64,000 nt of DNA from a virus: positions 121,565 through 185,564 of the IMG/VR virus record IMGVR_UViG_3300003690_003472; one strand, written 5' to 3'. Shown here piece by piece: positions 5,750 to 64,000 of the stretch. The position numbers were made by a program, and so were the translations under genes. The notes under the pieces were generated by a model. That model did no database searches, was not told the DNA's origin, and saw nothing but the letters and a program-made list of their open reading frames with translations. How positions within the stretch are numbered: the stretch's first letter is position 1; every line of letters starts with the position of its first letter.

Positions 5750-5974
5750 ATGAAAATTACCAAAACTAAATTACAACAAATTATCAAAGAAGAGCTAGAG
5801 GATGAATGGTTGCATGATCCGGAAGCAGAAAAAGATGCAAAAATTAAATGGCTCGAAGAGCGCGTCGGAGAGCTTTTCGAAAGAGTTGTTGGCCTAGAGC
5901 AAGAAGCTGGTATCGAATGGCGCGGCGGGGGCCGCCTGCCGCCGCCTGGCGGATGGCGCGGAGGCGGTGAATAA
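5750..5974 (+). CDS. Tag A protein, 74 aa, coiled coil with Gly/Pro/Arg tail
   Basis: Starts with MKITKTKLQQIIKEELED, one of ten tag A N-termini in the window. A heptad-like helix follows (WLEERVGELFERVVGLEQEA), then a Gly/Pro/Arg tail. A CTATTTA element lies 24 bases upstream and AAGGGAGA precedes the ATG. The IIKE site fits the hydrophobic-x-Glu cleavage rule of T4-type prohead proteases. First of three consecutive tagged genes. Function unknown. Confidence 0.7.
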   Translation: MKITKTKLQQIIKEELEDEWLHDPEAEKDAKIKWLEERVGELFERVVGLEQEAGIEWRGGGRLPPPGGWRGGGE

Positions 5975-21800: not shown

Positions 21801-22314
21801 AAGTGGCGCCCTGAATGACCTAGTAGACGATAGATTCACGGGCCTTAAACATTTTTGGTCTGCTACTGTTGTAGATAGGCCAAAAAGCTTAAAGAAACTT
21901 GAAGAGAATATTGAATTATATTTACCCGAAGAAGAGTTTAATGATGAAGAAAAAATTAATAATCTTGTTTCTCTCACTGGTATCTTTCCAATGGATTTAG
22001 TTTTGGATAGCTCTGTTATGAATAGACTTGATTTTTATAAGGTTCCTCCAATTGGAGAGTGGGACGATGATTTGGGAGTAGCATGGTTTATTCCAAGAGA
22101 AATTATTTCAAAGAAAACTAAGAATGGTAAAACGTATTGGATTCTCAAAGTAATTGATAATACCTCAACCGTAACTTCAATTAAATGCTGGGGCGTTAAT
22201 CCAGAGCGAGATGAAATATATGTAAATCGCCCTTACATGAGTAAATTAGACTATGATGAACAGTGGGGATTTAGTACTCGATCTATAAAGTATAACTTTA
22301 GAATGTTAGCATAA
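18889..22314 (+). CDS. DNA polymerase III alpha subunit (DnaE-like, with PHP domain)
   Basis: 1141 aa, close to bacterial DnaE length. The N-terminal PHP domain has LHAHSGVGSPFDG and ALTDHGNMNGLAY metal ligands. The palm has GPGRGSAAGSLVAYVLG and the catalytic PDIDYDVSD (about residues 465-473); a third Asp is expected near VVPISNFN. The fingers include RPGPLGADVDKLY and FLIFQEQIALLA. C-terminal helix-hairpin-helix and OB-like regions follow. It should be the phage replicase. A family C polymerase beside T4-like helper proteins is unusual. Confidence 0.93.
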   Translation: MKSKIPFVGLHAHSGVGSPFDGLGYPQEHMDFAYENGCDALALTDHGNMNGLAYQVLHAKKMQEENKNFKPIFGVEAYFLPSLSTWKKEYDKAKENKKSKRTLDNSRSATTIEDEGSSKKAVKNILNRRRHLILLAQNQTGLNNIFKMVSKSFSKASFYRFPRVDYKILKKHNEGVIAASACLGGIYAGDYWENREKGIEAVVCAMQTTTQKMMDIFGDRWYGELQWNNIPEQHELNKYIIQMSEKYGFNLISTADSHYPSQTAWKDRELYRRLGWLGKGSAPSWLSSELPIGIEEIGYELYPKNGDQMWESYKTYSEECKVEYDDDLVLASMEETYYIAHSRIEAFLPDNTVRLPDFVVPPGFTASQTLSQLCFEGLRTLKLHTNEEYTDRLKKELVVIDDRGFSKYFLTMNAIVDKANSVQLTGPGRGSAAGSLVAYVLGITQINPIKYNLLFSRFLRKDAKDYPDIDYDVSDPMELKEMLIEEWGGDKVVPISNFNTLQLRSLVKDISKFYEIPFTEVNTVTSRMLKEATPLAKKKHGIKSGVYSPTFEEVMEFSESLKNFLDKYPHVANHINVLYGQMRSVSRHAGGVVIGKELNKYMPLINSGGVTQTPWSEGQNVRHLELMGFIKFDILGLSTLKMIEGAIGHILKRHHNIPNPTFKDVKNYYDENLHPEKIDLNDQKVYENIFHKGKWAGIFQFTEEGSQKFCRKAKPRNIIDVAAITSIYRPGPLGADVDKLYVRSKKNPEDIVYEHELVKELTKETYGFLIFQEQIALLAHKLGKDISLDEGNKLRKLLTKKGTGEVAKEKLKIKEKFITGCIEKDLTKDWANKMWKKFEYFSGYGFNKSHAVSYSIISYQCAWLFNYYPAEWMAAFLDKEPETRKEKAINLAKKFKFKIKPVNVNNSGVVWEIAQDNKTLIQPLTSLKGLGEKAIEQIINNRPFDIIEDFLFNDNIIYSKLNKKALDVLVRSGALNDLVDDRFTGLKHFWSATVVDRPKSLKKLEENIELYLPEEEFNDEEKINNLVSLTGIFPMDLVLDSSVMNRLDFYKVPPIGEWDDDLGVAWFIPREIISKKTKNGKTYWILKVIDNTSTVTSIKCWGVNPERDEIYVNRPYMSKLDYDEQWGFSTRSIKYNFRMLA

Positions 22315-25802: not shown

Positions 25803-26480
25803 ATGAGTAAAAAAAACTTATTGAATGAAGGTACCATCCGTCGTTTCATGAAGTTGGCCGGTACAGATGTATTAGTTAGTGATTTTTTGGCCGAAGAAAA
25901 TAAAGGCCATGGACCTGGCAAAGAGGTTAAACCTGGAGCAAATGTTGTTCCCTCTTCAGGCCAACTAAAAGAAACAGAAGAATTAGAAGAAGGCGAAGAA
26001 GTTGTAACAGAACAAGAAGAAGAACTTGCAGCTGGCCCTGAAGAATTGGGCGCCGAAGAAGATCTAGGTCTTGATTTAGAAGTACCCGAGGATGAAGAAG
26101 CAGAGCCCGAGGAAGAGACTTCTGTTGAAGAGTTTGCACGTGACGTACTCGACGCTATTAAGGATGTTGCCGGGGAACACGGTGTTGATATGGAAGTAGA
26201 AGAGATGCCGCCAGAAGAATTAGATGTTGGCGAACTGGAGCCCGAAGAAGAAGGTGAAGGCTTGGAACTTGGCGGAGAGGAAACCGGAGAAATTGGCGGC
26301 GAAGAAGCACCTGAAGAACTTGAAGAACTTGAAGAAGTTAATTATATTGATGATGCCGCACTCATGCAAGAAGTTTATAATCGAGTAACAAAACGAATTC
26401 TTCGCAAAAAAAAGACAGATGATATGGCAGCTACTTTGGCAGAGAAAATTAGCCAACGTCTCAGTAAAACAAAACAATAA
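25803..26480 (+). CDS. Highly acidic protein, scaffold/core-like
   Basis: 225 aa, dominated by Glu from about residue 55 to 185. The N-terminus LLNEGTIRRFMKLAG and VSDFLAEE contains two hydrophobic-x-Glu sites and resembles the C-terminal LLTESEIKRFAEIMN of the 57802 protein. A basic helix follows the acidic part (RVTKRILRKKK). Extreme acidity and position near a ClpP-like protease fit a prohead scaffold or core protein, by inference. CTATTTA lies 56 bases upstream. Confidence 0.6.
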   Translation: MSKKNLLNEGTIRRFMKLAGTDVLVSDFLAEENKGHGPGKEVKPGANVVPSSGQLKETEELEEGEEVVTEQEEELAAGPEELGAEEDLGLDLEVPEDEEAEPEEETSVEEFARDVLDAIKDVAGEHGVDMEVEEMPPEELDVGELEPEEEGEGLELGGEETGEIGGEEAPEELEELEEVNYIDDAALMQEVYNRVTKRILRKKKTDDMAATLAEKISQRLSKTKQ

Positions 26481-49108: not shown

Positions 49109-49378
49109 ATGAAAATAACCAAATCTAAACTCAAACAACTAATCAAAGAAGAGCTTAATCTTATTTTAGAAGAAAAAGAAAGATATGTCTTAGAAAGGTC
49201 TGGTGTTTCCTTTAACAAGAAATTTGTTACCGGTGGCAAAGCTGATGATCCGAATTTTGGTACACTTGAAAAAGCTAAAACTTTTGCATGTAAAGATGCT
49301 GCTAAAGTATACGCAAAGAAAGTGGATAAAGAATCTGGTATACATGTTAGCGTAGAAAATAAAAAAGGACTTGAATGA
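49109..49378 (+). CDS. Tag A protein, 89 aa
   Basis: MKITKSKLKQLIKEELNLIL, then a basic domain (FVTGGKADDPNFGTLEKAKT, CKDAAKVYAKKV). The ATG at 49109 places the tag at the N-terminus. It opens the second group of tagged genes. Confidence 0.65.
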   Translation: MKITKSKLKQLIKEELNLILEEKERYVLERSGVSFNKKFVTGGKADDPNFGTLEKAKTFACKDAAKVYAKKVDKESGIHVSVENKKGLE

Positions 49379-49379
49379 T

Positions 49380-50360
49380 ATGTATATAACCAAATCCCAA
49401 CTTAAGTATATCATCAAAGAAGAGGCGTCCGCCGTGTTAAAAGAAAAGCAATTGCACGAAGCCACTGTACCCGCGCCAGGATCGGATCCTCAACATGATA
49501 TGGGAGACGATGCATCAATTGAATCTGGCCGCGCAGGATCTATCCCTTTTTGTAGAACACCAGATCCTAGAGGGGGAGTCGGAGGTACCGGAATCGGGCA
49601 AACAGTAGGCACGGATGCATGCCGCAAATGGAACTACGAGCGCGGCCGAGCCCAAGTGCCCATGGGCGCCAAATTGGGTGGTTTAGGCCAAGGCCAAAAA
49701 GGAGGAGATCGTTTAAATATTGGCGCCATTCGTAGCTATGAAAAATATTTAGCTAGATATCCAGAACTAGGTACTGGAAGACTAGAGGGTATATCTGGAA
49801 ATGAAAAAAATCTCAGATGGCTGCAAAGCAAATTAGACATATATGTCACACAAGTTAAGCGCGAATACAACCTTCGTACTGATTATTGGGACCGTCAACA
49901 CGAAGTACGTAACCTCCCCAAAGGATCGGACGAACGGCAAGAGGCCTTGATCGCCCGGTGGGATATTATGAATAGTCTTCACAATGCCATGTTTGAGGTT
50001 GATAAAACGTTTGCCAGTTATATTAACGTGAGAGAAATGTTTAGAAAGGCCACAAAAATGCGATCCGGCCCGGGCTTTCCTGCCGCGCCTCAAGGCGCTG
50101 CAATGCAACAAAAAATATATAAAACGGAGGCACCTGACGAAGCATTGACAGATCTTGGATATTTTTATCGACTTTTGAAGCAGTATAGCATAAAACAACC
50201 AGAACATTTAACAAAATATGGCCAAGATTTCACTTGGGGCCCTGAACATCAAAGAGCATATAACGAATTAGTAAAACGTATGGAAATTGCAGACGAGGCA
50301 GCGCCCCAACTTGATAGGTTGAAAAAAAGCGTACTTTATATTATTAAAAAATATAAATAA
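49380..50360 (+). CDS. Tag A protein, 326 aa
   Basis: MYITKSQLKYIIKEEASAVL, then a Gly/Pro-rich stretch and a helical domain (RSYEKYLARYPELGTGRLEG, RREYN-like helices, IADEAAPQLDRLKKSVLYII). No known domain. Follows the previous gene by one base. Convergent with the minus-strand lipoprotein gene. Confidence 0.65.
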   Translation: MYITKSQLKYIIKEEASAVLKEKQLHEATVPAPGSDPQHDMGDDASIESGRAGSIPFCRTPDPRGGVGGTGIGQTVGTDACRKWNYERGRAQVPMGAKLGGLGQGQKGGDRLNIGAIRSYEKYLARYPELGTGRLEGISGNEKNLRWLQSKLDIYVTQVKREYNLRTDYWDRQHEVRNLPKGSDERQEALIARWDIMNSLHNAMFEVDKTFASYINVREMFRKATKMRSGPGFPAAPQGAAMQQKIYKTEAPDEALTDLGYFYRLLKQYSIKQPEHLTKYGQDFTWGPEHQRAYNELVKRMEIADEAAPQLDRLKKSVLYIIKKYK

Positions 50361-50370
50361 TTAAATAAAC

Positions 50371-50724
50371 CTACCTTCTCTTTTTACCTCTCTTAGATTT
50401 CTTACCCTTACGTCTATTCTTAACATTATTATCGTAGTAGTGCCTGTGGATTGTAGTCCGATTATAGACATTTCTTTTATATATATGTCGATGTCTTATT
50501 CTCGGCCTTACAATTGTTCTATGGTGCCTATATTGTCTATGTTGGTGATGACGTATAATTCTACGTTTATAATGATGACGTGGATGATATACACGTGCTC
50601 TTGGTACATATACAGGTGACGTATATACTACACGGTGTGGCGTAATTACCCCATAAGCACCAAAACATCCTGGTAAAAATATCATGCTAAGTCCTGCTAT
50701 GATATATAAAATACACTTTTTCAT
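50371..50724 (-). CDS. His/Arg/Tyr-rich lipoprotein (only minus-strand gene)
   Basis: 117 aa. Signal peptide with lipobox FLPGC, then a mature domain of His/Arg/Tyr repeats (RRIIRHHQHRQYRHHRT) and a basic end KRGKKRR. AAAGGAG precedes the ATG on that strand. Such a tail could bind metals or polyanions such as LPS or DNA at the cell surface. Orientation is opposite to every other gene, so it has separate control. Confidence 0.7.
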   Translation of the reverse strand: MKKCILYIIAGLSMIFLPGCFGAYGVITPHRVVYTSPVYVPRARVYHPRHHYKRRIIRHHQHRQYRHHRTIVRPRIRHRHIYKRNVYNRTTIHRHYYDNNVKNRRKGKKSKRGKKRR

Positions 50725-50791
50725 GATTTAACTCCTTTAATGTATATATAGATGATGCATATTACATGCCAAGTTATAGTTAGATAAAAAA

Positions 50792-50810
50792 AATTTCGGA
50801 TTCCGAAATT
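50792..50810. promoter_or_regulatory. 19-bp palindrome between divergent genes
   Basis: AATTTCGGA-T-TCCGAAATT is perfectly symmetric around one base and lies between the minus-strand lipoprotein and the plus-strand tagged gene at 50861. It could be an operator for both. Confidence 0.55.
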
Positions 50811-50860
50811 GGATTTTTAAAATAATTGCAACTATTTAATATTAGCAAGGAGATATCCCC

Positions 50861-51280
50861 ATGAAACTAGCCAAGTCGCGACTAAAACAGATCATAAAAG
50901 AAGAATTACAAAAAGTACTAAAAAAGAAACAACTTAGAGAAGCTATTACAATACCATTCGGAGGATGGGGACAAGATATACTTGATTGTCACAAAGCAAA
51001 GGGAGACAAACATGCCGCAGAAGTACTTCAAAAAGTATACGACACGCGCGGTCGAGATCCGAATGCGATGATGGCATATTCAATAGTTATGAAAAATAAT
51101 GCAATGCATCCTGATTGTAGGAATCTCTTTCCAGACAAAAAACAAGAAAGAGCAGATATTGAAGCTTATAATAAAGAACTAGCCTGGCGCCCCGATGATC
51201 CAGAAACAGGACAAGGAGCCAAAGTAGTACCCCGAGAAACAAGAGGTCGGGCTCCGGAAGACTACGAAGAAGTCGAGTAA
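50861..51280 (+). CDS. Tag A protein, 139 aa
   Basis: MKLAKSRLKQIIKEELQKVL followed by FGGWGQDILDCHKAKGDKHA and a charged tail. A CTATTTA lies 23 bases upstream and AGGAGAT before the ATG. DCHKA and HPDCRNLFP suggest a compact Cys/His domain. Confidence 0.65.
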   Translation: MKLAKSRLKQIIKEELQKVLKKKQLREAITIPFGGWGQDILDCHKAKGDKHAAEVLQKVYDTRGRDPNAMMAYSIVMKNNAMHPDCRNLFPDKKQERADIEAYNKELAWRPDDPETGQGAKVVPRETRGRAPEDYEEVE

Positions 51281-51302
51281 CTTTAAAAGGGAAAACATTC
51301 AA

Positions 51303-51644
51303 ATGAACCTCACAAAAAAAGACCTCAAACAACTCGTCAAAGAAGCCATGGGCGAAGAAAAAAAAGAATGGGATGTTAGCAAGCGTACAGCACTTCCTCG
51401 TGTTTTATCTCAAATTCTGAGCGCGCTAAGAGAAGCGCAAGATATTATTGATGGCGGCCACTTAGATGAAGAAAGGCCTGTTTCACCCACTGATATAGAA
51501 AATATAAAAAACATCTTCGAGCACCCTGCCTTAAAAACACTTAAAAAACTAGGTAATATTTCTGATGAAGCTGCTCACGAAGAAGCATATGGATTAGACA
51601 TCGATTGGGGAAGTGGTGAGCGCGACGCCGACTGGGATTATTAA
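51303..51644 (+). CDS. Tag A protein, 113 aa, acidic
   Basis: MNLTKKDLKQLVKEAMGEEK, a helix SQILSALREAQDIIDGG, ending in acidic GSGERDADWDY. This tag is the most diverged copy (VKEA instead of IKEE). Confidence 0.65.
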   Translation: MNLTKKDLKQLVKEAMGEEKKEWDVSKRTALPRVLSQILSALREAQDIIDGGHLDEERPVSPTDIENIKNIFEHPALKTLKKLGNISDEAAHEEAYGLDIDWGSGERDADWDY

Positions 51645-51646
51645 AC

Positions 51647-52096
51647 TTGAAACTAACAAAAACAAAACTTAAACAAGTTATCAAAGAAGAAGTATGTATT
51701 ATTTTGTATGAACAAGTCGGGCTTGAAAAAAACCTAGAATTCATAGCTGCACAAAAACGTAAAGCTGAAGAAAAGAAAACCTTTAAGAGCGCACTTACAA
51801 GATTTGTAAATACACTTGGCCATGGAACACATGAAGCAGCGCAGGGAAAATGGATTGATGATTTATTGAAAGCAGGATCTGATGCCTACAGCAAAGGCGA
51901 TTATGCCGGTGCATTAACTACTATGGCTAGCGCAGCTGCAGAAGATAAAATACCCGGTTATGAAATATTAATGGCCGCGCTTAAATCTATTAAAGATATC
52001 GAAATACAAAAACCTTCTTTTCTGCGTCCGCGCAAGTCGCTGATTTCGCACTCGGGCCGCGCGCTCTCGAAGTGGGCGAAGGAAAGGGACGGCTAA
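51647..52096 (+). CDS. Tag A protein, 149 aa
   Basis: TTG start two bases after the previous stop: MKLTKTKLKQVIKEEVCIIL. Helical domain (WIDDLLKAGSDAYSKGDYAG, MASAAAEDK) then a basic end. The GC-rich 3' end (TCGGGCCGCGCGCTC) differs from the gene body. Confidence 0.65.
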   Translation: MKLTKTKLKQVIKEEVCIILYEQVGLEKNLEFIAAQKRKAEEKKTFKSALTRFVNTLGHGTHEAAQGKWIDDLLKAGSDAYSKGDYAGALTTMASAAAEDKIPGYEILMAALKSIKDIEIQKPSFLRPRKSLISHSGRALSKWAKERDG

Positions 52097-53161: not shown

Positions 53162-53839
53162 ATGAAACTACTATTTGAAAATTGGCGAAAATTCTTATTA
53201 ACAGAAAAGCTAATGCTTAAGCCTGGTCCAAATGGTTGGGACAAATATAGAGAATTAGTAGCAAAAGCTTATGACGACGCTCCGCCGTTTGATGAGAGCG
53301 CGGCAAGCTCATTTGAAGCAATAGAGCCATTTGTAGATAAAATGTTTAAAAGAATATCTTCTAGAGTTGATGTACAATTTGTAGATGAGGATCCATACGA
53401 AGGCCCGGAAGAAATGTGTGACGACGCCCTCAACAATGGTATATTAAAAATATGGAAAGGCGGCACAGAACATCAAATATTTGACCCTGAGTTAAATTTA
53501 AAATTAAGAGCCGTTCATGATTATATGGCCCATTGTCAAAAAAGTACAGACTTTACCATGAAAGGTGAAATTGCTTCTTATAATGCTCACATGAAGACTG
53601 TCCCCCCTTCAGCAGCAGGCGCGCTATTTACGGAAGTTGTGGGGCAGGCAGCGTTTTTTCTTGATAGAGGATATTTTCCTCCACAAAAAATAGCCATTTT
53701 ACCAGGATTTGATTTTTTTAATGTTGGTGAAGTTGACCCAGAAATTACAGGATACAGATTAGATCCAGAAAGAAAAGAATTGATTAAAGTTGGAGAGGAA
53801 ATTCAGGAGCCGTCTATAGATCCGGAGGGCTTATTATAA
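53162..53839 (+). CDS. Tag B protein, 225 aa
   Basis: MKLLFENWRKFLLTEKLMLK is the type example of tag B. The rest has a conserved-looking core RAVHDYMAHCQKSTDFTM, then a helix with FTEVVGQAAFFLDRGYFPPQ, which I recall in other phage proteins without a function. Fully soluble. The hydrophobic-x-Glu site is LLTE. ATG 53159 is one codon earlier. Confidence 0.65.
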   Translation: MKLLFENWRKFLLTEKLMLKPGPNGWDKYRELVAKAYDDAPPFDESAASSFEAIEPFVDKMFKRISSRVDVQFVDEDPYEGPEEMCDDALNNGILKIWKGGTEHQIFDPELNLKLRAVHDYMAHCQKSTDFTMKGEIASYNAHMKTVPPSAAGALFTEVVGQAAFFLDRGYFPPQKIAILPGFDFFNVGEVDPEITGYRLDPERKELIKVGEEIQEPSIDPEGLL

Positions 53840-54048
53840 TGGGCCATTTGAAAAGAAATAATGAAACATACATAAGCCACTTATTGTTTGCAGGAAAAGT
53901 TGGCTTGACTTTAATCTTCCGTGGCATTATATTTTTACTACATGGTATATTACCAATTTGTAAGATTCCAAAATTCTTAAATCTTAAAAGCACTAGCGAT
54001 AAACTATACAAATGGAATGAACATACATATAGGAGAAAGTGGAAATGA
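53839..54048 (+). CDS. DUF6356-like small membrane protein
   Basis: 69 aa. GHLKRNNETYISHLLFAGKV, one membrane helix (LTLIFRGIIFLLHGILPI) and a basic tail resemble DUF6356 proteins found in bacterial hosts, probably captured. Shares one base with the previous stop. Confidence 0.6.
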   Translation: MGHLKRNNETYISHLLFAGKVGLTLIFRGIIFLLHGILPICKIPKFLNLKSTSDKLYKWNEHTYRRKWK

Positions 54049-54401
54049 AAAATTGGAAACCAAAATTTATTAATAATAGTAAAATTCCAGTCTGGTTGTC
54101 TAAGCTATCACCTATCAACATTTGGGCTTTAAGCTTTGGGTTTTGGGTTTGGTGTCGAGGAAAGGCCTCAGAAACTACAAAACGACACGAAACAATACAT
54201 TTTCAACAACAATTAGAACTATTATTTATTTTTCAGTGGATATTATACGGCTTGTTTTGGGTTATTGGTCTTATAAAATATAAAAGCGGTAAAGAAGCTT
54301 ATTATAAAAATCTTTTTGAGCAAGAAGCCTATAGCAATCAACACAACACTAATTACTTAAAGAACAGAAAACGATATTCATGGTGGAAATATAAAGTATG
54401 A
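54045..54401 (+). CDS. Membrane protein with HExxH motif
   Basis: 118 aa. RHETIHFQQQLELLF carries HExxH plus a Gln, followed by a membrane helix (FIFQWILYGLFWVIGLI). Possible zinc peptidase in the membrane, but no third ligand is clear. ATGA overlap with the preceding and next genes. Confidence 0.5.
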   Translation: MKNWKPKFINNSKIPVWLSKLSPINIWALSFGFWVWCRGKASETTKRHETIHFQQQLELLFIFQWILYGLFWVIGLIKYKSGKEAYYKNLFEQEAYSNQHNTNYLKNRKRYSWWKYKV

Positions 54402-55201
54402 ATAAGTGGAAAAAATTTTTAGATGAAATTGTAGAACCAGAAAATGTTCAAATTAAGGGGATATCTGTTAAAGAAACTCTAGATCCTGTCATTTGGGACA
54501 ATAATCAATTAAAAGGTTATATTGCTGAACATCTCTACAAGATCGCAAAAAACTTTTTTATATCCTTAGAAATCGATTGGGAATTCGTACAAGATGTTAC
54601 ATTTACTGGATCTTTAGCAAATTATAATTGGTCAACATATTCTGATATTGATTTACATATTTTAGTTGATTTTAGTGATATTGATACAAATAAAAAACTA
54701 GTAAGAGATTTTTTTAAAAATGCAACAATGATATGGAATAAAGTTCATAATATTACAGTGAAAGGCCATGAAGTAGAATTATATGTTCAAGATTCGCGCG
54801 AACCACACCACTCAACAGGAGTTTATTCAATAAAATATGATCAATGGAAAAAAACACCATCAAAATACAATCCAGAAATTGATGAGACAAGCGTGAGAAA
54901 AAAAGCAGCTAAATTTATGAACGATATTGATGATGTATATGATTTATACGCAGAAAAGAATTTTAAAGATGCACATGAACAAGCAGAGAAATTACGAGCG
55001 AAATTAAGAAAATTTAGACAAGGTGGCTTAGAGAAAGGTGGAGAATATTCAATTGAAAATTTAGTTTTTAAGGTTCTACGCCGTAACGACTATTTGTATA
55101 AGCTATCTAGTTTAAAAATTATGTCATATGACAAAATGATGTCCGTTAATGGAGGAATAGGAAGTGAAATTATCAAAGTCAATCTTAAAACAACTAATTA
55201 A
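54398..55201 (+). CDS. Tag B nucleotidyltransferase-fold protein
   Basis: 267 aa. MNKWKKFLDEIVEPENV is a short tag B (LDE site). FTGSLANYNWSTYSDIDLHI gives the GS...DxD motif of the minimal nucleotidyltransferase/polymerase beta fold, and KGHEVELYVQD supplies the third acidic residue. Such enzymes add nucleotides to RNA, proteins or antibiotics. A tagged, possibly injected nucleotidyltransferase could modify a host target, in the way T4 Alt is packaged and acts on host proteins. Confidence 0.65.
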   Translation: MNKWKKFLDEIVEPENVQIKGISVKETLDPVIWDNNQLKGYIAEHLYKIAKNFFISLEIDWEFVQDVTFTGSLANYNWSTYSDIDLHILVDFSDIDTNKKLVRDFFKNATMIWNKVHNITVKGHEVELYVQDSREPHHSTGVYSIKYDQWKKTPSKYNPEIDETSVRKKAAKFMNDIDDVYDLYAEKNFKDAHEQAEKLRAKLRKFRQGGLEKGGEYSIENLVFKVLRRNDYLYKLSSLKIMSYDKMMSVNGGIGSEIIKVNLKTTN

Positions 55202-55337
55202 AGAGGAAATTGATGCTCTTTTTGAATGACCGGGCCCAGACGAAGGGGAGTCTCCTCTTGAAGAAGAATTAACCGACAAAGAAGAAGAGCACAAAGAGAA
55301 ACTCGAAGACGAACTCGAAGATTTAGAACATAAGTGA
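55164..55337 (+). CDS. Tag A peptide with in-frame TGA, then acidic tail
   Basis: GTG start: MKLSKSILKQLIKEEIDALF, Glu, then TGA (55227-55229). The same frame continues PGPDEGESPLEEELTDKEEE to HLEHK-like end and TGA at 55337. Either a 21-aa tag peptide, a nonsense-broken gene, or stop read-through (TGA followed by C is a leaky context). Overlaps the previous gene by 38 bases. Confidence 0.45.
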
Positions 55338-55348
55338 ATAAAGGAAGG

Positions 55349-55366
55349 AAAGCTGAGTTCAGCTTT
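55349..55366. promoter_or_regulatory. Perfect inverted repeat
   Basis: AAAGCTGA-GT-TCAGCTTT, 8 bp each side with a 2-base centre, immediately before the TTG of the next gene; it could control its translation. Confidence 0.4.
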
Positions 55367-55556
55367 GGTCAAAAGATATAACTTGAATGAATCGATTGGA
55401 AAAGTTTTATGGCATTCTTTAGATAAAAGTGGAAATATTGAAGAATATGATATGCAATTTGGGAATACAATTATTAGAGGCCTTCTACCTGAAGATATTG
55501 AGCCTCAAACAACTAAATTACATGAACATAACACACAAAAAAGAGATGGCAGGTAA
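55365..55556 (+). CDS. Hypothetical protein, 63 aa
   Basis: TTG start (or ATG later): MVKRYNLNESIGKVLWHSLD. The start overlaps an inverted repeat. Beta-rich and soluble, no domain recognised. Confidence 0.4.
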   Translation: MVKRYNLNESIGKVLWHSLDKSGNIEEYDMQFGNTIIRGLLPEDIEPQTTKLHEHNTQKRDGR

Positions 55557-55561
55557 AAATT

Positions 55562-55753
55562 ATGTGTTTAATTTGTATTGAATATGAAAAAGGTAAATTA
55601 AAGATCAATGAGGCTCTCCGAAACTTAGAAGAGATGAGAGAATCTATTGGAGAAATACACTATGATGAAACAAGAGAACTTCTCATAGAAGATATGATGA
55701 ATGAATTTAATTTTGATGACGAATATTGGGAAAAATTAGGATTTGGAGACTAA
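55562..55753 (+). CDS. Small conserved phage protein, 63 aa
   Basis: MCLICIEYEKGKLKINEALR opens a family I recall from other phages; acidic helix to the end (MNEFNFDDEYWEKLGFG). One-base TAATG overlap with the next gene. Confidence 0.65.
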   Translation: MCLICIEYEKGKLKINEALRNLEEMRESIGEIHYDETRELLIEDMMNEFNFDDEYWEKLGFGD

Positions 55754-57438
55754 TGAAATATTTCAAAGGTTGGCGAAAGTTCTTAAATGAAAGTGTTGAT
55801 CCATATGCAGAAACTGCAGAAACACAAGTACAAACTAAAATAGCCAAACCAAAAGCTAAAACTGATGAATATGATTCTCCTTACGAATATGAAGAAACTC
55901 CAGAAAAATCACGTGAAACATACTTTGGCAAAAGCCCAGACAACCTTCGATGTATAAAAGACCTTAGAAATCAAGCAATAGATGTCTTTCCTCCGGACTT
56001 TTATAGGTGTATGGAACAAGAAGGCTATACTAAATTAGGTGCAGGCTCTTTTAGAGCGGTTTTTAACGTCCCAGAAAACCCGGAACTAGTTCTTAAGGTT
56101 GTAGGACCGGCAAATTCTTATCCAGAGCAAATCAGAAGCAGAGAAATGAACAAAGAAGAAGCAAAAGCCTCTTTTCAAACAGCTTCTGACTTAGTACCAA
56201 AGGTTTTTGATAGTGCAAGAGACTATTTTTGGATTATATCTGAAAAAGTTACTCCCATATTAACTTGGGAAGAGATGAAGAAGTTCTTTCCGGCGTGGAA
56301 AGACGAAAATGAATATGATTTCTCGTGGTGGTTCCAAAAATTAATTTTATCAGAGCTTAATAATGAAGTTGCGATTAGAAATTTAGATAATCGCATTGAA
56401 TACGTAAAAACTGGTAAAGAATTAGTTAATGATCCGCTTATTTTACAAATTCGTGACCTTCTGGCACAATTTGACCTTCCGGCGTGGGATATTCGCCCTC
56501 ATAATGTAGGATATGCCACTAGAAACGGTCAAAAACAGTTTGTTATACTAGATCCCGGCTTTGAACTAGGAAAAGCTACAGGAACAGTTGCTGATCAAGG
56601 CCCAGAACCTTCGATTTCAGACATTTTTAAGGATGACGTAGCAAAAACATGGAAACCACAACAAAAAGACAAGAATACAACAACCATAAGAGAAGATTTG
56701 ACTAAAAATTGGCAATTGTTTGTCGAAAATGCCGAAATTAAGGGCCCAAATGACTTTTTATACGACATTACAGCCTCTCCAGACAAAATTACCATCAATT
56801 TACTCGATTCAGTAACAAAAGAGCCCGTAGAAAGCAAAAAAGAGGACACAAATGCCTACATTTCTATGGAAAAGCGAACAAACGTGCCTAATTGGGAGGT
56901 TGCATGGTCATCTTCGCCTCTAAATAGCGAAAAAGTAGGTATAATCATGTATTTAATGGCTCTAGAGCTAGTTGAAGAGGGTTTGTCGCCCGATTCTTAT
57001 GAAACCAGCCCTGATGCACTGCGAATTTGGGCAAAATTCATGAAAAAGAACGAATATGGGGTTAAAAAAGAACTAAAAGACGGTCATGAGGGTCAAGATG
57101 AAGAAGATCCTGTTAATTTTGTGTTTTTTAAGCCAAATAAGGCCATTTTAGAGCAATATTCGGACAAAATCACCGTAAAAGAGGTCGAAAGCGAAGAAAA
57201 AGACGAATTTGACCCCAAAAAAGAGGAAAAATTCGAATATTTTGACACCGAAGCGTTTGATTGGGAAGATTTAGACGAATTAGACGAGCAAACAGAGCCA
57301 TATCAGCTATTTTCAATAGGTACATACAAAGATTTCATAAAAGATCTTGCAAATCAAGGCAAAAACAAGTATAATATAGGTGGAAAAATGAAAAAAGCAT
57401 CAAACAAGCACCTAAAAAGTGGTCCTCTAGGCGGTTGA
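55753..57438 (+). CDS. Tag B protein kinase-fold protein
   Basis: 561 aa. MKYFKGWRKFLNESVDPYAE is tag B (LNE). A kinase-like lobe begins near residue 96: GYTKLGAGSFRAVFN is the glycine loop, LVLKVV holds the Lys, and LPAWDIRPHNVGYA and ILDPGFELG stand for the catalytic loop (D...N) and the DFG-type Asp. The catalytic loop lacks the usual HRD His, so it may be an atypical kinase. The C-terminal half is acidic. A packaged kinase could act on the host at injection. Confidence 0.65.
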   Translation: MKYFKGWRKFLNESVDPYAETAETQVQTKIAKPKAKTDEYDSPYEYEETPEKSRETYFGKSPDNLRCIKDLRNQAIDVFPPDFYRCMEQEGYTKLGAGSFRAVFNVPENPELVLKVVGPANSYPEQIRSREMNKEEAKASFQTASDLVPKVFDSARDYFWIISEKVTPILTWEEMKKFFPAWKDENEYDFSWWFQKLILSELNNEVAIRNLDNRIEYVKTGKELVNDPLILQIRDLLAQFDLPAWDIRPHNVGYATRNGQKQFVILDPGFELGKATGTVADQGPEPSISDIFKDDVAKTWKPQQKDKNTTTIREDLTKNWQLFVENAEIKGPNDFLYDITASPDKITINLLDSVTKEPVESKKEDTNAYISMEKRTNVPNWEVAWSSSPLNSEKVGIIMYLMALELVEEGLSPDSYETSPDALRIWAKFMKKNEYGVKKELKDGHEGQDEEDPVNFVFFKPNKAILEQYSDKITVKEVESEEKDEFDPKKEEKFEYFDTEAFDWEDLDELDEQTEPYQLFSIGTYKDFIKDLANQGKNKYNIGGKMKKASNKHLKSGPLGG

Positions 57439-57481
57439 GGCCCCCTTTAAACTAGTTATTATAGACGTGGAGGTCCATATT

Positions 57482-57673
57482 ATGCCTATTATACCCGAAA
57501 TACCCCCCGATTTGATTGATTTTTTGATTCAAATGGAGAAGGAAGAGCAAAAAAAGCAAGAAAACAGGCCATATTTATACATTCCAGTCCCAAACATGCC
57601 CGAAATACCCCCCAAAAAGGAAGAAATAGAGGAAAAAGACAAGGAAAATGGGGTCATTATAATAGATATTTAG
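57482..57673 (+). CDS. Pro/Glu-rich small protein, 63 aa
   Basis: GGAGGTCC precedes this ATG. MPIIPEIPPDLIDFLIQMEK, then Pro/Glu repeats and VIIIDI at the end, a pattern I associate with small proteins of deltaproteobacteria and phages. Confidence 0.5.
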   Translation: MPIIPEIPPDLIDFLIQMEKEEQKKQENRPYLYIPVPNMPEIPPKKEEIEEKDKENGVIIIDI

Positions 57674-57801
57674 GCGATAAGTAGACATATATAATACATT
57701 GAAGAGTTATTGCGTAAAAATAATAATATTAAGAGGTAAATAACAAAGAAATATGACTATTTATTTACGAGTTACCTTATTCTGTGGCCAGGAGATTTAA
57801 T

Positions 57802-58827
57802 ATGAAACTAACTAAAGAGCTTATACAACAGTATATTAAAGAAGAACTAGCAAATCACACTTTAAAGCTGAACGAACAGCTGCCAAAGCCAGAACCTCGC
57901 TTGCCTGTACCTGGACAAGCTGCAGCTGCTGAAACAGATGTTGAAGGTGCTCAAGCTAAAACAGCTGAAGCAGAGGCGAAAGAAGAATCGCGCAAAGTAA
58001 TGTTTAATTTTGCTACTCAGGCCATAAGAATAGCTGAAGCGCTGATTAAAAAACGTACGGTGGCCGCTGCAGCTGCCCAAGAAGCACTAGAAGAAGCCAC
58101 ACGTGAGCAAGAAAAAGCTGAAGAAGGTCCATGGGGTGGCGCGCCGCACAGTTTAGATTGGAAAGTTGAACAGGCCATGGCGGATCTCAAAGATGCTCAA
58201 AGCGATCTAGCACAATCAAAACAACAACAACTGCAGTACCAACAAATGTTGGAGAAACACAAACGCCCCCTAACACCAGAAGAAATAGAAGCCGGGAAAA
58301 AGTTCTGGGGAAATATTATCAAAAAAGGCAAAGAATGGCTTGGTATTGGAGGTGAATCTACTCCTACCGTAACTCCTACGGACAAAGAACAATCTAAACA
58401 ACAAAGTTTGCCCGGTGAACATCCGCCAGGATCCGGTATGGAACCACAACAGAGTATGGCTGATCCTATACCGAAACCTCGACGCATAGCAGGAATGTCA
58501 GTTAAATATTTGGAAAAAAGAGGTTACACATGGGATCCAAATAAAGGCACTATGATACACCCCAAAAAAGGTGATGTACGCAACGTTGCCTCCAAGTGGA
58601 AGAGTCAGAAGAGGAGCCGCCGAAAGCGCATCGCAGCGCAAAATAAAATGGTAAAAAAGCTACAAAACTTAAAAAGACAAAATTTTCCAGCTGGACAAAC
58701 ACAAGCAGATCGAGACGCAGAAGGAATTGAATCGAAAACATTGCAAGAAAACAAGCAAACAAACACCGATCTTTTAACTGAATCTGAAATTAAACGCTTT
58801 GCAGAAATAATGAACACTAAAAGTTAA
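57802..58827 (+). CDS. Tag A protein, 341 aa, long coiled coil
   Basis: MKLTKELIQQYIKEELANHT begins it; the ATG follows CAGGAG. The middle is an Ala/Glu/Gln coiled coil (KTAEAEAKEE to SDLAQSKQQQLQ), then a Gly-rich and a basic domain (VASKWKSQKRSRRKRIAAQN). It ends LLTESEIKRFAEIMNTKS, similar to the N-terminus of the 25803 protein. CTATTTA lies 39 bases upstream. Confidence 0.65.
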   Translation: MKLTKELIQQYIKEELANHTLKLNEQLPKPEPRLPVPGQAAAAETDVEGAQAKTAEAEAKEESRKVMFNFATQAIRIAEALIKKRTVAAAAAQEALEEATREQEKAEEGPWGGAPHSLDWKVEQAMADLKDAQSDLAQSKQQQLQYQQMLEKHKRPLTPEEIEAGKKFWGNIIKKGKEWLGIGGESTPTVTPTDKEQSKQQSLPGEHPPGSGMEPQQSMADPIPKPRRIAGMSVKYLEKRGYTWDPNKGTMIHPKKGDVRNVASKWKSQKRSRRKRIAAQNKMVKKLQNLKRQNFPAGQTQADRDAEGIESKTLQENKQTNTDLLTESEIKRFAEIMNTKS

Positions 58828-58831
58828 ATGA

Positions 58832-59176
58832 ATGAGACTAATACTTGAAAACTTTCGAAAATATCTTAAAGAGATCAAAGATAGATGGGAATTCAGCGTA
58901 TTAGTTCGCTTAGAAAAAGATGCCAACCTTTATGCAGACATATTTGAAAAAATTCGTGCAATTCCTGGCGTTACAATTGTTAAAACCAAAGAAAAACAAA
59001 GAAACATATCTCCCACACAAAAAGCTGCTGTTTTAGAAGTTAAATGCATTATTGGTGGTACCGGAATGGTAAATTACGGCGTATACCTTAAAAGCCAGCT
59101 AGCAAAACTCCAAGATGAACAAGGTGATCGAATTCTTGGAGTTCAATTTTCTTCACCCCCAGAAGACGTTTCTTAA
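58832..59176 (+). CDS. Tag B protein, 114 aa
   Basis: MRLILENFRKYLKEIKDRWE carries tag B (LKE). The rest alternates strands and helices (EFSVLVRLEKDANLYADIFE, VLEVKCIIGG) like a ferredoxin-type fold. Starts 4 bases after the previous stop. Function unknown. Confidence 0.6.
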   Translation: MRLILENFRKYLKEIKDRWEFSVLVRLEKDANLYADIFEKIRAIPGVTIVKTKEKQRNISPTQKAAVLEVKCIIGGTGMVNYGVYLKSQLAKLQDEQGDRILGVQFSSPPEDVS

Positions 59177-59242
59177 AAAAATATTTTAAAAACAATTGTT
59201 TTTAATGTATTCTATATATAGTTATTATATGAGGTATAGGAT

Positions 59243-61570
59243 GTGTCAGTAAAAAGACTGGTTTTCACATGCCTTGTTATTATATTTACTTTAATTTTCT
59301 TAGTTTCATGTAGCGATAATGAACAAGGCGGCGACAACGTATACACCCCTATACCTACATATCCAGATATTGAAGTACCGCCTGAAGATATAGAAGAAAC
59401 ATCAGATGGTATAGAAGAAGATATTAAACCAGATACATATGAACAAGATTGTATTAAATGTGCATATTATTTTTGTCCCCCTTTAGATGAAGTTTGGCAA
59501 AAAGAAATTTGCATTGATCATTGCACCGATCCGCCCACCGTTGTTCTAGAAAACGAATGCATTGAATTGTTAGAATGCGACCCAACCACACATATTCTAG
59601 AATCTGATATTCCTTGTACCACCGAAGAAGGATATCCCGGCACAAAAGATAAAACATGCGATAAAGGACATATTTATTATACCAATTGTCAATCACCCTG
59701 TAAACCAGAAGAGTGCAGCGGTATTGATGACGATTGTGACGGAGAAATTGATGAAGGCTTTTCAGATATAGAAGAAACATGCAACAATATTGATGATAAT
59801 TGCAATGGCATTGTTGATGAAGGAGATTGGGGAAAATGTGAAAAACTATGTGGACCAGGAGAAAATCTATGTATTGCTGGCCAATTAATTTGCAAGGGCC
59901 CTGAGCCAAAAGAAGAAATTTGTGATAAAATAGACAACGATTGCGATGGCGAGATTGACGAAGATGTTGCAAATGCATGTGGAGAATGCGGTGATGTACC
60001 AGAAGAGGTGTGCGATTATATAGATAATAATTGTGATGGGCAGATTGATGAAGGCCTTGCGAATGCATGCGGTGAATGTGGAAAAGAACCTGAAGAAATA
60101 TGCAATGGTTTAGATGACGATTGCGATGGTGAAATTGATGAAGGACAATTAAATGCTTGTGGAGAGTGTGGTCCAATTGAGGATGAAATATGCGATGGAA
60201 TCGATAATGATTGTAATGGTTTGATTGATGAAGAGTTGGTTGATAAATGTTCCACTGATTGTGAAGAAAATTTAAAGTTTTGTGTTGGTGGAAGTTGGCT
60301 ATGTACAGCAAAACAACCAGTTCCTGAATTTTGTAATGGCTTAGATGATGATTGCGATGGTAAAATTGATGAAGGTTTAAATTGTCTTTGTTCAGTTAAT
60401 GATCTTGGGGCGCTATTTCCATGTCAAGAAGATCCGCTTATTTGTGGGGGCGGATATAAAACTTGTGAATGTATAAATGCAGCTTGTACAAAGCTACAGT
60501 TAACTGATTGTTTGGCAGTTTGTCATTGGCTACCACAAACAACCGCCCCAGGAACAACTTGTGATAAATACTTAGGTGAAATTAAACCAGAAGAATGCAA
60601 CAATCATGATGATAATTGTAATCAGTTAATAGATGAGGGTATGTTTGCAAGTTGTTATAGCGGGTCAGTAAGTACTATGATGGTTGGCATATGTTTACCG
60701 GGTGAAATGACATGTGAAGTAGGTAAATGGGGCCATTATGATGATAATAATAAGTTTATACAAAATCTTTGCCTAGGGGAAATTACACCAGAAAAGGAAG
60801 ATCTTTGTAATGGTACCGATACAAACTGTGACGGAAAAATCGATGAAGATAAGGAATTAGAACCCACTGATATTCTTTTTATTATTGATTGGTCGGGTTC
60901 AATGATTAACGAAATTAATTCCGTTACAACTGCTTTAAATTACTTTGCAACTCACTATAGCGATTCGGAAGTTGTAAAATGGAGCATTGTGCTGACAGCG
61001 CATTGGGCTGGTGGTGGAGCAGAACAAGTAATACTTAAAACAGATCTTGTTGAATTTCAATCATTCATGACTGTTTTTCAAACTCTTAGCTTTACTAATA
61101 TGGGTGGCCTAGAGCAAAATTATGATGCAATATATTTGGCCATTCATAATTTAGTTGGTGCTGCAGCACTGCCTTATCAAATAGCAGATTTAAAATGGAC
61201 ATCAGGCCCATGGGGCAATTCTCCAAGTGAATCAATACCACCAAAAGAACAATGGAATATTAACTGGAGAAGTGATGCAAAACATGTCATTATTTTGTTC
61301 TCTGATGAAGAGGGCCAATCATATTTTGAACCACTAATCACAGAACCAATATTAGTAGATATGATTAGCATGGCTGATGAATTAGCTGTTTATGTTTTTT
61401 CAACTAACAATATTATAAATCAATTATGGGGAGATAATTATGAACCCTTAACTCAAGCAGGTTTTGCCGGGAAGATGTTTAAACTTTCGTCAAAAGCAAT
61501 TGAAATGTATAATAATCTTTTAGAAATCTTGGATGAAACCGCTTGCGGCAATAATAGCGCTAGTCCTTAA
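59243..61570 (+). CDS. MopE-like lipoprotein with Cys/Asp repeats and VWA domain
   Basis: 775 aa. GTG start, signal peptide with lipobox LVSC. Residues about 150-515 hold nine repeats of the type CNGxDDDCDGxIDEG, each a likely Ca or Cu binding loop. The C-terminal VWA-like domain has DILFIIDWSGSMINEI (MIDAS). Such proteins are typical of Myxococcota/Deltaproteobacteria surfaces. In a phage it could be an adhesion or host-surface protein, perhaps captured. Confidence 0.8.
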   Translation: MSVKRLVFTCLVIIFTLIFLVSCSDNEQGGDNVYTPIPTYPDIEVPPEDIEETSDGIEEDIKPDTYEQDCIKCAYYFCPPLDEVWQKEICIDHCTDPPTVVLENECIELLECDPTTHILESDIPCTTEEGYPGTKDKTCDKGHIYYTNCQSPCKPEECSGIDDDCDGEIDEGFSDIEETCNNIDDNCNGIVDEGDWGKCEKLCGPGENLCIAGQLICKGPEPKEEICDKIDNDCDGEIDEDVANACGECGDVPEEVCDYIDNNCDGQIDEGLANACGECGKEPEEICNGLDDDCDGEIDEGQLNACGECGPIEDEICDGIDNDCNGLIDEELVDKCSTDCEENLKFCVGGSWLCTAKQPVPEFCNGLDDDCDGKIDEGLNCLCSVNDLGALFPCQEDPLICGGGYKTCECINAACTKLQLTDCLAVCHWLPQTTAPGTTCDKYLGEIKPEECNNHDDNCNQLIDEGMFASCYSGSVSTMMVGICLPGEMTCEVGKWGHYDDNNKFIQNLCLGEITPEKEDLCNGTDTNCDGKIDEDKELEPTDILFIIDWSGSMINEINSVTTALNYFATHYSDSEVVKWSIVLTAHWAGGGAEQVILKTDLVEFQSFMTVFQTLSFTNMGGLEQNYDAIYLAIHNLVGAAALPYQIADLKWTSGPWGNSPSESIPPKEQWNINWRSDAKHVIILFSDEEGQSYFEPLITEPILVDMISMADELAVYVFSTNNIINQLWGDNYEPLTQAGFAGKMFKLSSKAIEMYNNLLEILDETACGNNSASP

Positions 61571-61573
61571 TAT

Positions 61574-61891
61574 ATGAAGTTTCCTAACAGTGTTTTAAGG
61601 TTTTTTCTTATTCTCCTGCTTGTTTTAAATATTTTTGATGCATATGCCACTTTTTATTGGGTCACTAACGGGTTAGCGTCAGAGAGAAATCCAATTATGC
61701 AAGAGTGGCTTCATTTGAATCCTTTTGTATTCATATATATAAAATTAATCCTAGTCGGTATCGCGATTGGATTTTTATGGACTGTTAGAAACAGACAACT
61801 AACACATATATTGATAATTCCACTTATTTTAACGTATATGTATGTTTTTATATTACATTGCAACATTGCATATCTGGTTTTTTATAACTAA
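61574..61891 (+). CDS. Small membrane protein, DUF5658-like
   Basis: 105 aa. LRFFLILLLVLNIFDAYATF, then GLASERNPIMQEWL, then two more helices; the D...T...ANP-like pattern resembles DUF5658. It follows the lipoprotein stop by 3 bases. Confidence 0.55.
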   Translation: MKFPNSVLRFFLILLLVLNIFDAYATFYWVTNGLASERNPIMQEWLHLNPFVFIYIKLILVGIAIGFLWTVRNRQLTHILIIPLILTYMYVFILHCNIAYLVFYN

Positions 61892-61899
61892 TTAATAAT

Positions 61900-62109
61900 A
61901 TGAAGATTGATATTAAAACAGCTATAACAATAGGAGCTTTATTATTTGCTATAGCAGGTTTTTATTATACAACCACAAACGACCTTTATTCTCTTTCTTT
62001 AAAAATCGAAGGTCTTGAGAGTGAAAATAGAATGCAACAAAAACGTTTAGACTCATTAGATAAAAAAATGAATAGAGTAAACAAACAACTACGGGAGTTA
62101 AATAAATGA
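61900..62109 (+). CDS. Membrane-anchored coiled coil, possible inner spanin
   Basis: 69 aa. N-terminal membrane helix (AITIGALLFAIAGFYYTT) and a long charged coiled coil (LDSLDKKMNRVNKQLRELNK). The topology fits an i-spanin, and the overlapping lipoprotein gene next to it could be the partner. Other coiled-coil membrane roles are possible. Confidence 0.45.
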   Translation: MKIDIKTAITIGALLFAIAGFYYTTTNDLYSLSLKIEGLESENRMQQKRLDSLDKKMNRVNKQLRELNK

Positions 62110-62570
62110 AAAAATTTTTATTATTAGTGTTATTAGTGTTTTTCTTAGCTTCATGTGCTAATACAACAACACAATTGAAAAAACAAGATTTATACCCTAG
62201 TATATCAGTAGAAAACATTAAAAAGTACTGTGATTCTACTGAACAATGGCAAATGGTGATATTAGGTTTGCCAAGTTATGTTTTAAGATTTGATAATTGT
62301 TTAAAAGTTAAAACACTTCTGGCTATTTCAATCGACACTACATTATATACAGAAAAAATAAGACAACATTCCATAGATCTACTTGCATTACATTATGTGG
62401 AATATTTAAAACGCAAATATTTTGAAGAGACAGCTGCTGATTCACCGACTAGAACTTGGTTCATAAAAAGAATTAAAGAAGAAATTGGTGATAACTGGAA
62501 TACTTATTTTTATGATATCACTTATAAAATAATTAATTGTTCTGATAGCACATGTACGAAAGAAGACTAA
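62106..62570 (+). CDS. Lipoprotein, possible outer spanin partner
   Basis: 154 aa. Signal peptide with lipobox FLASC. Mature domain includes two Cys pairs (YCDSTEQW, NCSDSTC). Larger than most o-spanins, so the spanin idea rests on gene order and ATGA overlap with 61900. Confidence 0.45.
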   Translation: MKKFLLLVLLVFFLASCANTTTQLKKQDLYPSISVENIKKYCDSTEQWQMVILGLPSYVLRFDNCLKVKTLLAISIDTTLYTEKIRQHSIDLLALHYVEYLKRKYFEETAADSPTRTWFIKRIKEEIGDNWNTYFYDITYKIINCSDSTCTKED

Positions 62571-62573
62571 TTT

Positions 62574-63203
62574 ATGAAACTATTATTTGAAAGTTGGAAA
62601 AGATTTTTAAACGAAGAAGATGATGTTTTTTCTTATCAAGTTTATTGTGACATGGACGGCGTATTAGTAGATTTCGAAAGCGCAGCTATTGAACAAATAA
62701 ATAGAGATATAAAAAATGAAACAATCGCTGGAATAAATATAGACAAATTACGAAAAAAACTATCTGATCTTGGAAGAGATGAAATTATAAAACAAGATTT
62801 GAATAAAATGGATAAAGAAAACAGAATTCAAGCTGCTAGAAATTATATGTATAGGCGATTTGATGATGATGAAGAATTTTGGGCCAATCTTCCATGGGTT
62901 GAGGGCGGTAAAGAGTTATGGTCTTATATAAGTAAATTTAATCCCTATATATTAACAGCGCCAATGAAGGGCGAAGGATCAAAGAGGGGAAAAGATATTT
63001 GGATTCAAAAAAATCTTAACCCACCGCCGGAAAAAGTATATATGTCTCATAAAAAATATAATTGGGCGGTTGATACAGATAACAACCCAAATGTTTTAAT
63101 TGATGATTTCACCACAAATACCATCCCATGGGAAGAGCATGGCGGAGTTGCAATATTGCACACAGACACAAGTAGTACCATTCAAGAGTTGGAGAGATTA
63201 TAA
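62574..63203 (+). CDS. Tag B HAD-family phosphatase (5'-nucleotidase-like)
   Basis: 209 aa. MKLLFESWKRFLNEEDDVFS is tag B (LNE). VYCDMDGVLVDFESA is HAD motif 1, WANLPWVEGGKELWSYI the cap region, and NVLIDDFTTN motif 4 with Asp-Asp. The set is typical of deoxyribonucleotide 5'-nucleotidases. A tagged copy could act inside the host right after injection, for example on nucleotide pools. Confidence 0.7.
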   Translation: MKLLFESWKRFLNEEDDVFSYQVYCDMDGVLVDFESAAIEQINRDIKNETIAGINIDKLRKKLSDLGRDEIIKQDLNKMDKENRIQAARNYMYRRFDDDEEFWANLPWVEGGKELWSYISKFNPYILTAPMKGEGSKRGKDIWIQKNLNPPPEKVYMSHKKYNWAVDTDNNPNVLIDDFTTNTIPWEEHGGVAILHTDTSSTIQELERL

Positions 63204-63205
63204 AC

Positions 63206-63724
63206 GTGAAACTCTTATTTGAAAATTGGCGTCAATATCTTTTAACTGAAGTTTCTTTTGCAGACGCCAAAGAAATTCTTAACTCTAAAAGAACAATGAA
63301 AATCATTAAAGCGTATCGTTACGACAAAGAACAGGATGACACAATTGATAGTTGGGATGCAGCATTGCCACGCACTCAACACCGCAACTTTATAAACTAT
63401 CTTCTCGATCAAATCCCAGACGATTTAACAGACAATCAAAAAGGTTCTTCTGTGTTGTGGTTGTTGAAATTGTCACGAGAAAATCCAAGTTATGCAGCTT
63501 CTTTTATTGAGGGAAGCACAAACCGGTTCCGCAATGTCTGGGATCATCTCGAAACCTTTTTCCATCACCAACGCTTTATGCCTCAACAGGATTTGATGCA
63601 AATTAAATCAATCGAAGATCTTGAAAACATGGCAGAAGGTGCGAAAGAAGAAATTAATAAAGCACAAGAGCTGCTTGCGAATTGGGAAAAGGGACAAATT
63701 GGTGTACTGCTGCTCCCGGTTTAG
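63206..63724 (+). pseudogene. Tag B protein, interrupted by a frameshift
   Basis: GTG start: MKLLFENWRQYLLTEVSFAD. The frame runs to LLLPV-stop at 63724, but protein-like sequence continues in another frame from 63661 to the window end: ACELGKGTNWCTAAPGLDYF, YYKPDDPLFYFEG and EKYQFHYGSEQFMDKDD. The shift lies near 63650-63695. GAA-AAG-GGA provides a slippery A-AAG-GGA, so programmed -1 shifting is possible, as is an assembly error or mutation. Confidence 0.6.
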
Positions 63725-64000
63725 ATTATTTTGAAGATTACTATAAGCCAGATGATCCATTATTTTATTTTGAAGGCTCTCCAAACCGTAATGATCTCGC
63801 AGAACCAGCGGCCGAAAAATATCAATTTCACTATGGTTCAGAACAATTTATGGATAAAGATGACAGTCATGTTTCCGAGGAAATCGAAAAATGGCTCCAC
63901 AACATTCTCATGCAAACAGAAGCACCAAAAAAATATCCAGTTGTGCAATTTTATCACGATCATATGATAGCTGAAGACCGATCAACGCCTCCAGAAGAAT
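63661..64000 (+). CDS. Downstream frame of the interrupted protein (partial)
   Basis: Open to the window edge with coding-type residues, about 113 codons. GKGTNWCTAAPGLDY is a motif I recall in phage proteins near the end of tag-bearing genes. It has no good start of its own; it follows two TAA codons in this frame, so it must be reached from the frame above or has been cut off from it. Confidence 0.55.

Follow-up and report, generated by a model that had tools for sequence, protein, structure and literature searches.

A portable N-terminal leader on unrelated proteins of uncultured T4-type phages and its likeness to capsid-targeting sequences

The stretch of DNA analysed here (the window, 64,000 nucleotides) comprises bases 121,565–185,564 of the IMG/VR phage record IMGVR_UViG_3300003690_003472 (G000, 185,564 bases). 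Six genes located between positions 53162 and 64000 of the window encode proteins that begin in nearly the same way, and the question raised by this locus is what a common start, called tag B, does on proteins that otherwise differ. A preliminary description of the sequence reported the six starts, compared them with MKTYQEFIAEA of phage T4 and suggested that the carriers are enzymes acting on the host at injection. All six N-termini were found as described: each starts with a helix of aromatic and basic residues that terminates in (L/I)-x-E. The analogy with the capsid-targeting sequence (CTS) of T4 proved well supported at the sequence level: the finding is best seen as a large, distinct variant on the CTS theme.

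Extent and form of tag B

In the window, tag B is encoded on the plus strand at 53162..53206 (MKLLFENWRKFLLTE, then K), 54398..54427 (a short form, MNKWKKFLDE, then I, with aromatic residues at positions 4 and 7, L8 and E10), 55753..55791 (a 13-residue form, MKYFKGWRKFLNE, then S), 58832..58873 (MRLILENFRKYLKE, then I), 62574..62615 (MKLLFESWKRFLNE, then E) and 63206..63250 (MKLLFENWRQYLLTE, then V, with a GTG start). A seventh copy was located outside the window, at the far end of the record (G000:191), where MKLLFENWRKYIKE, followed by D, leads a 568-aa protein. All seven end in (L/I)-x-E.

A scan with a degenerate DNA pattern revealed tag B matches in more than 120 IMG/VR stretches. At least 164 open reading frames (ORFs) carried the tag, and their post-tag parts formed at least 89 families unrelated to each other by BLAST. 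The consensus was MKLLxENWRKYLxE, with a core of 14–15 residues and variants of 10–15. The first pattern itself required the final LxE, and the scan was repeated with MKLLxENWR alone fixed, which gave 118 distinct N-termini, with W8 set by the search pattern. Among these N-termini, E14 was present in 86 (p ~1e-66), F/Y11 in 100 and L/I12 in 89. The motif [LI]xE occupied residues 12–14 in 80 of the 118, with 1.4 expected, and was found at other offsets in 0–12 N-termini, the 12 corresponding to a position one residue later (13–15). Residue 14 carries 2.0 bits of information, residue 15 carries 0.56 and later residues about 0.2, and therefore the signal of tag B ends at LxE. When 6,784 shuffled N-termini were scored, none reached the threshold of the tag B profile applied in the census, whereas 5–10 real N-termini per genome did so in seven related genomes, a few of them with low scores. 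The tag is shared far beyond chance. Literature searches returned no description of it. Among 84,980 genomes of cellular species a single tag B match was detected. The contig concerned, in which several genes have tag B or tag A (a second leader, described below), looks like misbinned phage DNA.

The likeness to T4 drawn in the preliminary description held in several respects, the first of which is the register. Amber-suppressor work on T4 assigned targeting mainly to CTS residues 4 and 7 and processing to residues 8 and 10 (PMC9026906). As read from the T4 record, IPII and IPIII start with MKTYQEFIAE/A (the slash marks a cleavage site, known or presumed). Counted back from the cut, in an alignment-only comparison, T4 residues 4, 7, 8 and 10 correspond to W8, F/Y11, L/I12 and E14 of tag B. 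The short form in the window, MNKWKKFLDE/I, and its orthologue in the related genome G002, MKAFKEYLEE/I, have the exact length and register of the T4 sequence. The features in common with the CTSs of IPI, IPII, IPIII and Alt are a putative N-terminal propeptide of 10–19 residues that is shared by unrelated proteins and has aromatic residues at P7 and P4, L or I at P3 and E at P1, together with a gp21-type protease and a T4-type head. A further, tentative likeness, to Alt itself, would be a possible ADP-ribosyltransferase (ART)-like family among the tag B cargo, assigned from a model of low confidence. Tag B differs from the T4 CTS in its longer core, its sequence, its often acidic P1' residue, its closeness to the capsid propeptide end and the number of its families, which in T4 is a handful. 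T4 CTSs are known on a few proteins, and the review only suggests that they may be a general loading route for T4-like phages (PMC9026906).

Two other systems were compared. The ejection (E) proteins of the giant phages phiKZ and SPN3US are also numerous packaged proteins with propeptides, which a gp21-related protease cuts after a short motif ending in E (PMC9026906). In contrast, tag B phages share one compact consensus peptide across dozens of unrelated proteins, and their closest heads and protease are of T4 type rather than of the phiKZ type.

Encapsulin cargo-loading peptides are likewise short and portable and load enzymes into an HK97-fold shell, but they are usually C-terminal and not clipped. 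Tag B sits at the N-terminus, closes with a protease motif and is confined to phages, which sets it apart from an encapsulin peptide.

Head genes, prohead protease and the capsid propeptide

G000 encodes a terminase, a portal/gp20 homologue (phrog_213), a gp21-type protease (phrog_207, 2.7e-45) and a gp23-type capsid protein (phrog_138, 4e-68), and as judged from these genes the head of these phages is of T4 type. A candidate scaffold gene is located at G000:103271. In the G000 lineage the capsid protein resembles that of T4 less closely than those of Flavobacterium phage immuto, Microcystis phage Mel-JY01 and Rhodothermus phage RM378. The lineage also differs from T4 in encoding DnaE, a bacterial-type DNA polymerase III alpha, found at 18889–22314 of the window in a phage with a T4-type head and in all six relatives checked (G001–G005 and G008). 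The gp21-type protease family was detected in all nine tag-B records of at least 139 kb, G000 included. The protease was present in 11 of 14 tag-B contigs and 13 of 14 tag-A contigs versus 2 of 13 control contigs selected with an unrelated pattern (Fisher p 2.6e-5). In G001, one tag-B gene (122477) lies directly upstream of the protease gene.

The aligned capsid proteins keep an (L/I/V)-x-E/(A, S or N) site near residue 59, ahead of the mature domain. T4 gp23 is cut after residue 65 (FGSFLTE/AE), and on this basis we infer that the major capsid protein (MCP) of G000 would be cut near residue 59. When every 15-mer of the G000 proteome was compared with MKLLFENWRKFLLTE, the highest score outside the tags went to the MCP segment MACLLENQAKELLRE/A, with 8 of 15 identities and no gap, and the match stops at the presumed cleavage site (MARLLENQAKELLRE/A, also written LLENQAKELLRE/ASAM). 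In six further genomes no non-tag window surpassed the MCP propeptide end (7–8 of 15), the seven genomes being related and so not independent. Of 680 windows ending in [LI]xE, the MCP site was the best, with 6 of 12 upstream identities versus 4 for the next, and a shuffled tag reached 6 of 12 in 11 of 5,000 trials (p ~0.002). In 1,500 internal controls the MCP site never came out as the best match. What tag B and the MCP segment have in common is LL-EN-K-LLxE. It is likely, though not established, that tag B mimics the end of the MCP propeptide. A direct match to the aromatic residues at P7 and P4 was also considered in the MCP propeptide and rejected, as MCP has Q and E there.

Carriers and the probable function of the leader

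The six carriers in the window, all encoded on the plus strand, are a nucleotidyltransferase-like, a kinase-like and a HAD 5'-3' deoxyribonucleotidase-like protein and three proteins without assigned function. Carrier 1 (53162..53839, 225 aa) belongs to the phrog_3170 family, to which no function is assigned. In its AlphaFold model the tag forms a helix of low confidence, followed by a hinge at residues 15–19 and a confident body, and a fold search with this model against the PDB gave no match. Carrier 2 (54398..55201) is nucleotidyltransferase-like by its motif (TGSLANYNWSTYSDIDLHI) and a weak Pfam score (0.0048), and it strongly matches the unnamed phrog_36119. Carrier 3 (55753..57438) combines a protein-kinase-like domain, recognised at the motif level with the catalytic motifs present (GAGSFRAVF, VLKVV, DIRPHN and ILDPG; YrbL profile 4.7e-4, below the cut-off), with a fused second module (residues 316–476, 56698..57180). 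The joint between these modules, at the start of the second, holds a tag-B-like remnant, LTKNWQLFVEN, and the second module is found as a separate tag-B-led protein in another contig (L097:5663-6247). Carrier 4 (58832..59176, 114 aa) has no assigned function; its orthologues in G002, L097 and L040 bear tags or tag-like leaders. Carrier 5 (62574..63203) is a HAD-type 5'-3' deoxyribonucleotidase-like protein (YCDMDGVLVDF) with a good assignment (phrog_2643, 3e-20). Carrier 6 (63206..64000), of the GTxWCTAAPGLDYF family, is frameshifted near 63,690 and is truncated by the window edge. Its relatives are intact and continuous across this site (L065:3733-5082 and L094:5830-7074), and the frameshift, at the end of the record, is possibly an assembly error. 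The folds of the window carriers are only partly firm: of those named in the preliminary description, the HAD phosphatase stood, and the nucleotidyltransferase and kinase stay at the level of motifs and weak profile scores.

Outside the window the carriers included zeta-toxin/AAA kinase, NUDIX, GDSL lipase, GNAT, HNH, ParB-like, DUF192, M23 and amidase proteins. For the ART-like family, which is not represented in the window (L105/L418, with YHGT/YHYT motifs), the top two PDB fold matches of a low-confidence model domain were ART-superfamily enzymes, tRNA 2'-phosphotransferase (probability 0.99, E 0.023) and DarT (probability 0.38). A PDB sequence search and Pfam gave no match for this family. 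A recurrent tag B cargo with CPPATQDLxLNTKNRD (L051, L071, L435 and others) is annotated elsewhere as a high potential iron-sulfur protein and adjoins the capsid maturation protease in one phage record.

Leaders and bodies were found in different combinations. The leaders of nucleotidyltransferase orthologues (MNKWKKFLDE, MKAFKEYLEE, MDFIKSWKSFLEE and MFYSSKKWKIFISE) differ widely yet keep the formula aromatic-x-x-aromatic-[LI]-x-E, and an orthologue of the 568-aa protein (57% identity) is led by MKLTLEAIEKLINE instead of MKLLFENWRKYIKE. Homologues of the HAD carrier are tagged in L078/L191 (one genome), L038 and L055 and untagged in L250, L015 and immuto (L177); an untagged nucleotidyltransferase homologue is present in G005. 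In these comparisons the modularity of tag and body appears clear.

Taken together with the register, the protease and the capsid propeptide, it is probable that tag B acts as a capsid-targeting sequence, a leader that docks cargo in the prohead through its likeness to the capsid propeptide and is removed afterwards. As an N-terminal propeptide it would dock the cargo onto the prohead (scaffold or capsid interior) during head assembly. Docking would probably proceed by imitation of the MCP propeptide end, which would contact the same assembly partner and carry the same protease site. The gp21-type prohead protease would remove the tag after (L/I)-x-E at residues 12–14, and the mature enzyme would be left free inside the head. 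Because the tag is portable, the lineage has placed it on dozens of unrelated enzymes, among them nucleotidyltransferase, kinase-like, HAD, ART-like, NUDIX and zeta-toxin-like proteins. The cargo would most likely accompany the DNA on injection and work soon after infection begins. The reading of the carriers as effectors injected into the host is plausible, and the interpretation given in the preliminary description is, as a whole, partly supported.

A recognisable tag on at least 89 protein families in uncultured marine relatives, tied to a capsid propeptide and a protease, suggests what a capsid-targeting sequence imitates and offers a testable answer to the question of cargo recognition in head assembly. 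If the capsid-targeting reading is true, the virion-delivered enzymes of abundant uncultured phages would be predictable from sequence, and the tag could be put to practical use as a leader that carries proteins into phage heads. A broader scenario is put forward tentatively, with slightly more doubt than belief. In this scenario tag B originated by copying or mimicking the MCP propeptide end, the leader-bearing proteins enter the prohead like capsid subunits and are freed by the same protease, and a widespread marine lineage, with the sister tags A and C, has used this to build a large set of injected enzymes that is exchanged rapidly and can be read from sequence.

Several observations weigh against capsid targeting. 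About one quarter of the prefix-selected N-termini have no LxE at residues 12–14 or 13–15. The P1' residue of tag B is most often acidic (E 33, D 13, S 12, A 10 and G 9; n = 118), whereas it is A, S or N in T4 IPII/IPIII and in the capsid proteins of these phages. The similarity to MCP taken alone is modest, as an 8/15 match can be found in the proteome for about 5% of control 15-mers, and the association with the protease is weaker when only mid-sized contigs are considered (p 0.03). A role in host takeover is not obvious for some carriers (endolysin-like, M23 peptidase), which need not act on host metabolism. No tag B turned up when cultured phages were searched by tblastn, and literature searches returned no virion proteomics for immuto or this lineage, so that docking, cleavage, packaging and injection of the tagged proteins are inferred. 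The match of the first tblastn query to immuto was a HAD protein without the tag.

The strongest alternative, rather unlikely, accepts that tag B targets the prohead and supposes that the tagged proteins take part in assembling the head or remain in the capsid as structural or core-filling components instead of being injected. Such a role would suit the tag-B gene next to the protease in G001, the weak match of a tag A carrier to a head scaffolding family and the effect of T4 IPIII on head assembly (PMC9026906). However, the carriers are mostly accessory, vary between genomes and show many enzyme folds unrelated to assembly.

It is improbable that tag B is instead a docking helix for another phage structure (the inner membrane, a replication compartment or the late transcription machinery) with LxE as part of the helix and no protease site. 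The predicted helix, of low confidence, and the quarter of copies without a clean LxE could be explained in this way, but conservation stops at LxE in the register of the processed T4 CTS, the same genomes encode the protease and the tag matches the capsid propeptide site. Moreover, ten window proteins that Pfam assigns to replication, nucleotide metabolism or chaperone function all lack tag B, a result that bears on the refuting condition named in the preliminary description, the presence of tag B in genes with clear cytosolic replication roles in related phages.

Still less probable is a feature at the DNA level, such as a recombination cassette or a translation enhancer. Many carrier genes are adjacent or clustered and some codon bias was noticed at tag codons 4–6, but the DNA upstream of the tag shows no conservation and the choice of synonymous codons differs between copies (residue 9 is encoded by each of the six Arg codons), which indicates selection on the peptide and not on the DNA; the end of conservation at LxE and the swapping of leaders between orthologues that keep the residue formula speak against it as well. 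Common descent of the six genes as paralogues, suggested by their clustering in 11 kb, is hardly credible given the lack of similarity beyond the tag, the at least 89 families across IMG/VR and the untagged HAD and nucleotidyltransferase homologues.

Sister leaders and further observations

Tag A was found on about ten G000 proteins, including those at window positions 5750, 5976, 6401, 49109–52096 and 57802 and one at G000:90053. The window cluster (49109..52096, plus strand) contains MKLTKSKLKQIIKEEL-type starts at 49109, 49380, 50861, 51303 and 51647. The carrier with the weak scaffolding match (MKLTKELIQQYIKEEL; 57802..58827, plus strand) lies between tag B genes. Tag A (MKITKSQLKQIIKEEL) is conserved through residue 16, and a second LxE is present at residues 20–22 in 33 of 158 copies versus 2 expected. 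It is probably a sister signal of tag B, because both share the M-K start, I-x-E at residues 12–14 and the association with the protease. A possible third leader, tag C, was noticed at 25803–26480 of the window, where MSKKNLLNEGTIRRFMKLAGTDVLVSDFLAE/E, ending in FLxE, precedes a very acidic protein.

No repeated tag was seen in the stretches read of RM378 and Mel-JY01. Immuto (NC_055915), a cultured relative with a T4-type protease, has its own repeated leader of the MENxFDLKKFLVE/NKLTxNS type on gp092, gp077 and gp076, and tag A-like leaders on gp095, gp094 and gp080.

Between carriers 4 and 5, the region 59243–61570 of the window encodes a protein of 775 aa that looks secreted and contains numerous EECDGIDNDCDGxIDE repeats as well as a von Willebrand-like region (TDILFIIDWSGSM), which is unusual in a phage.

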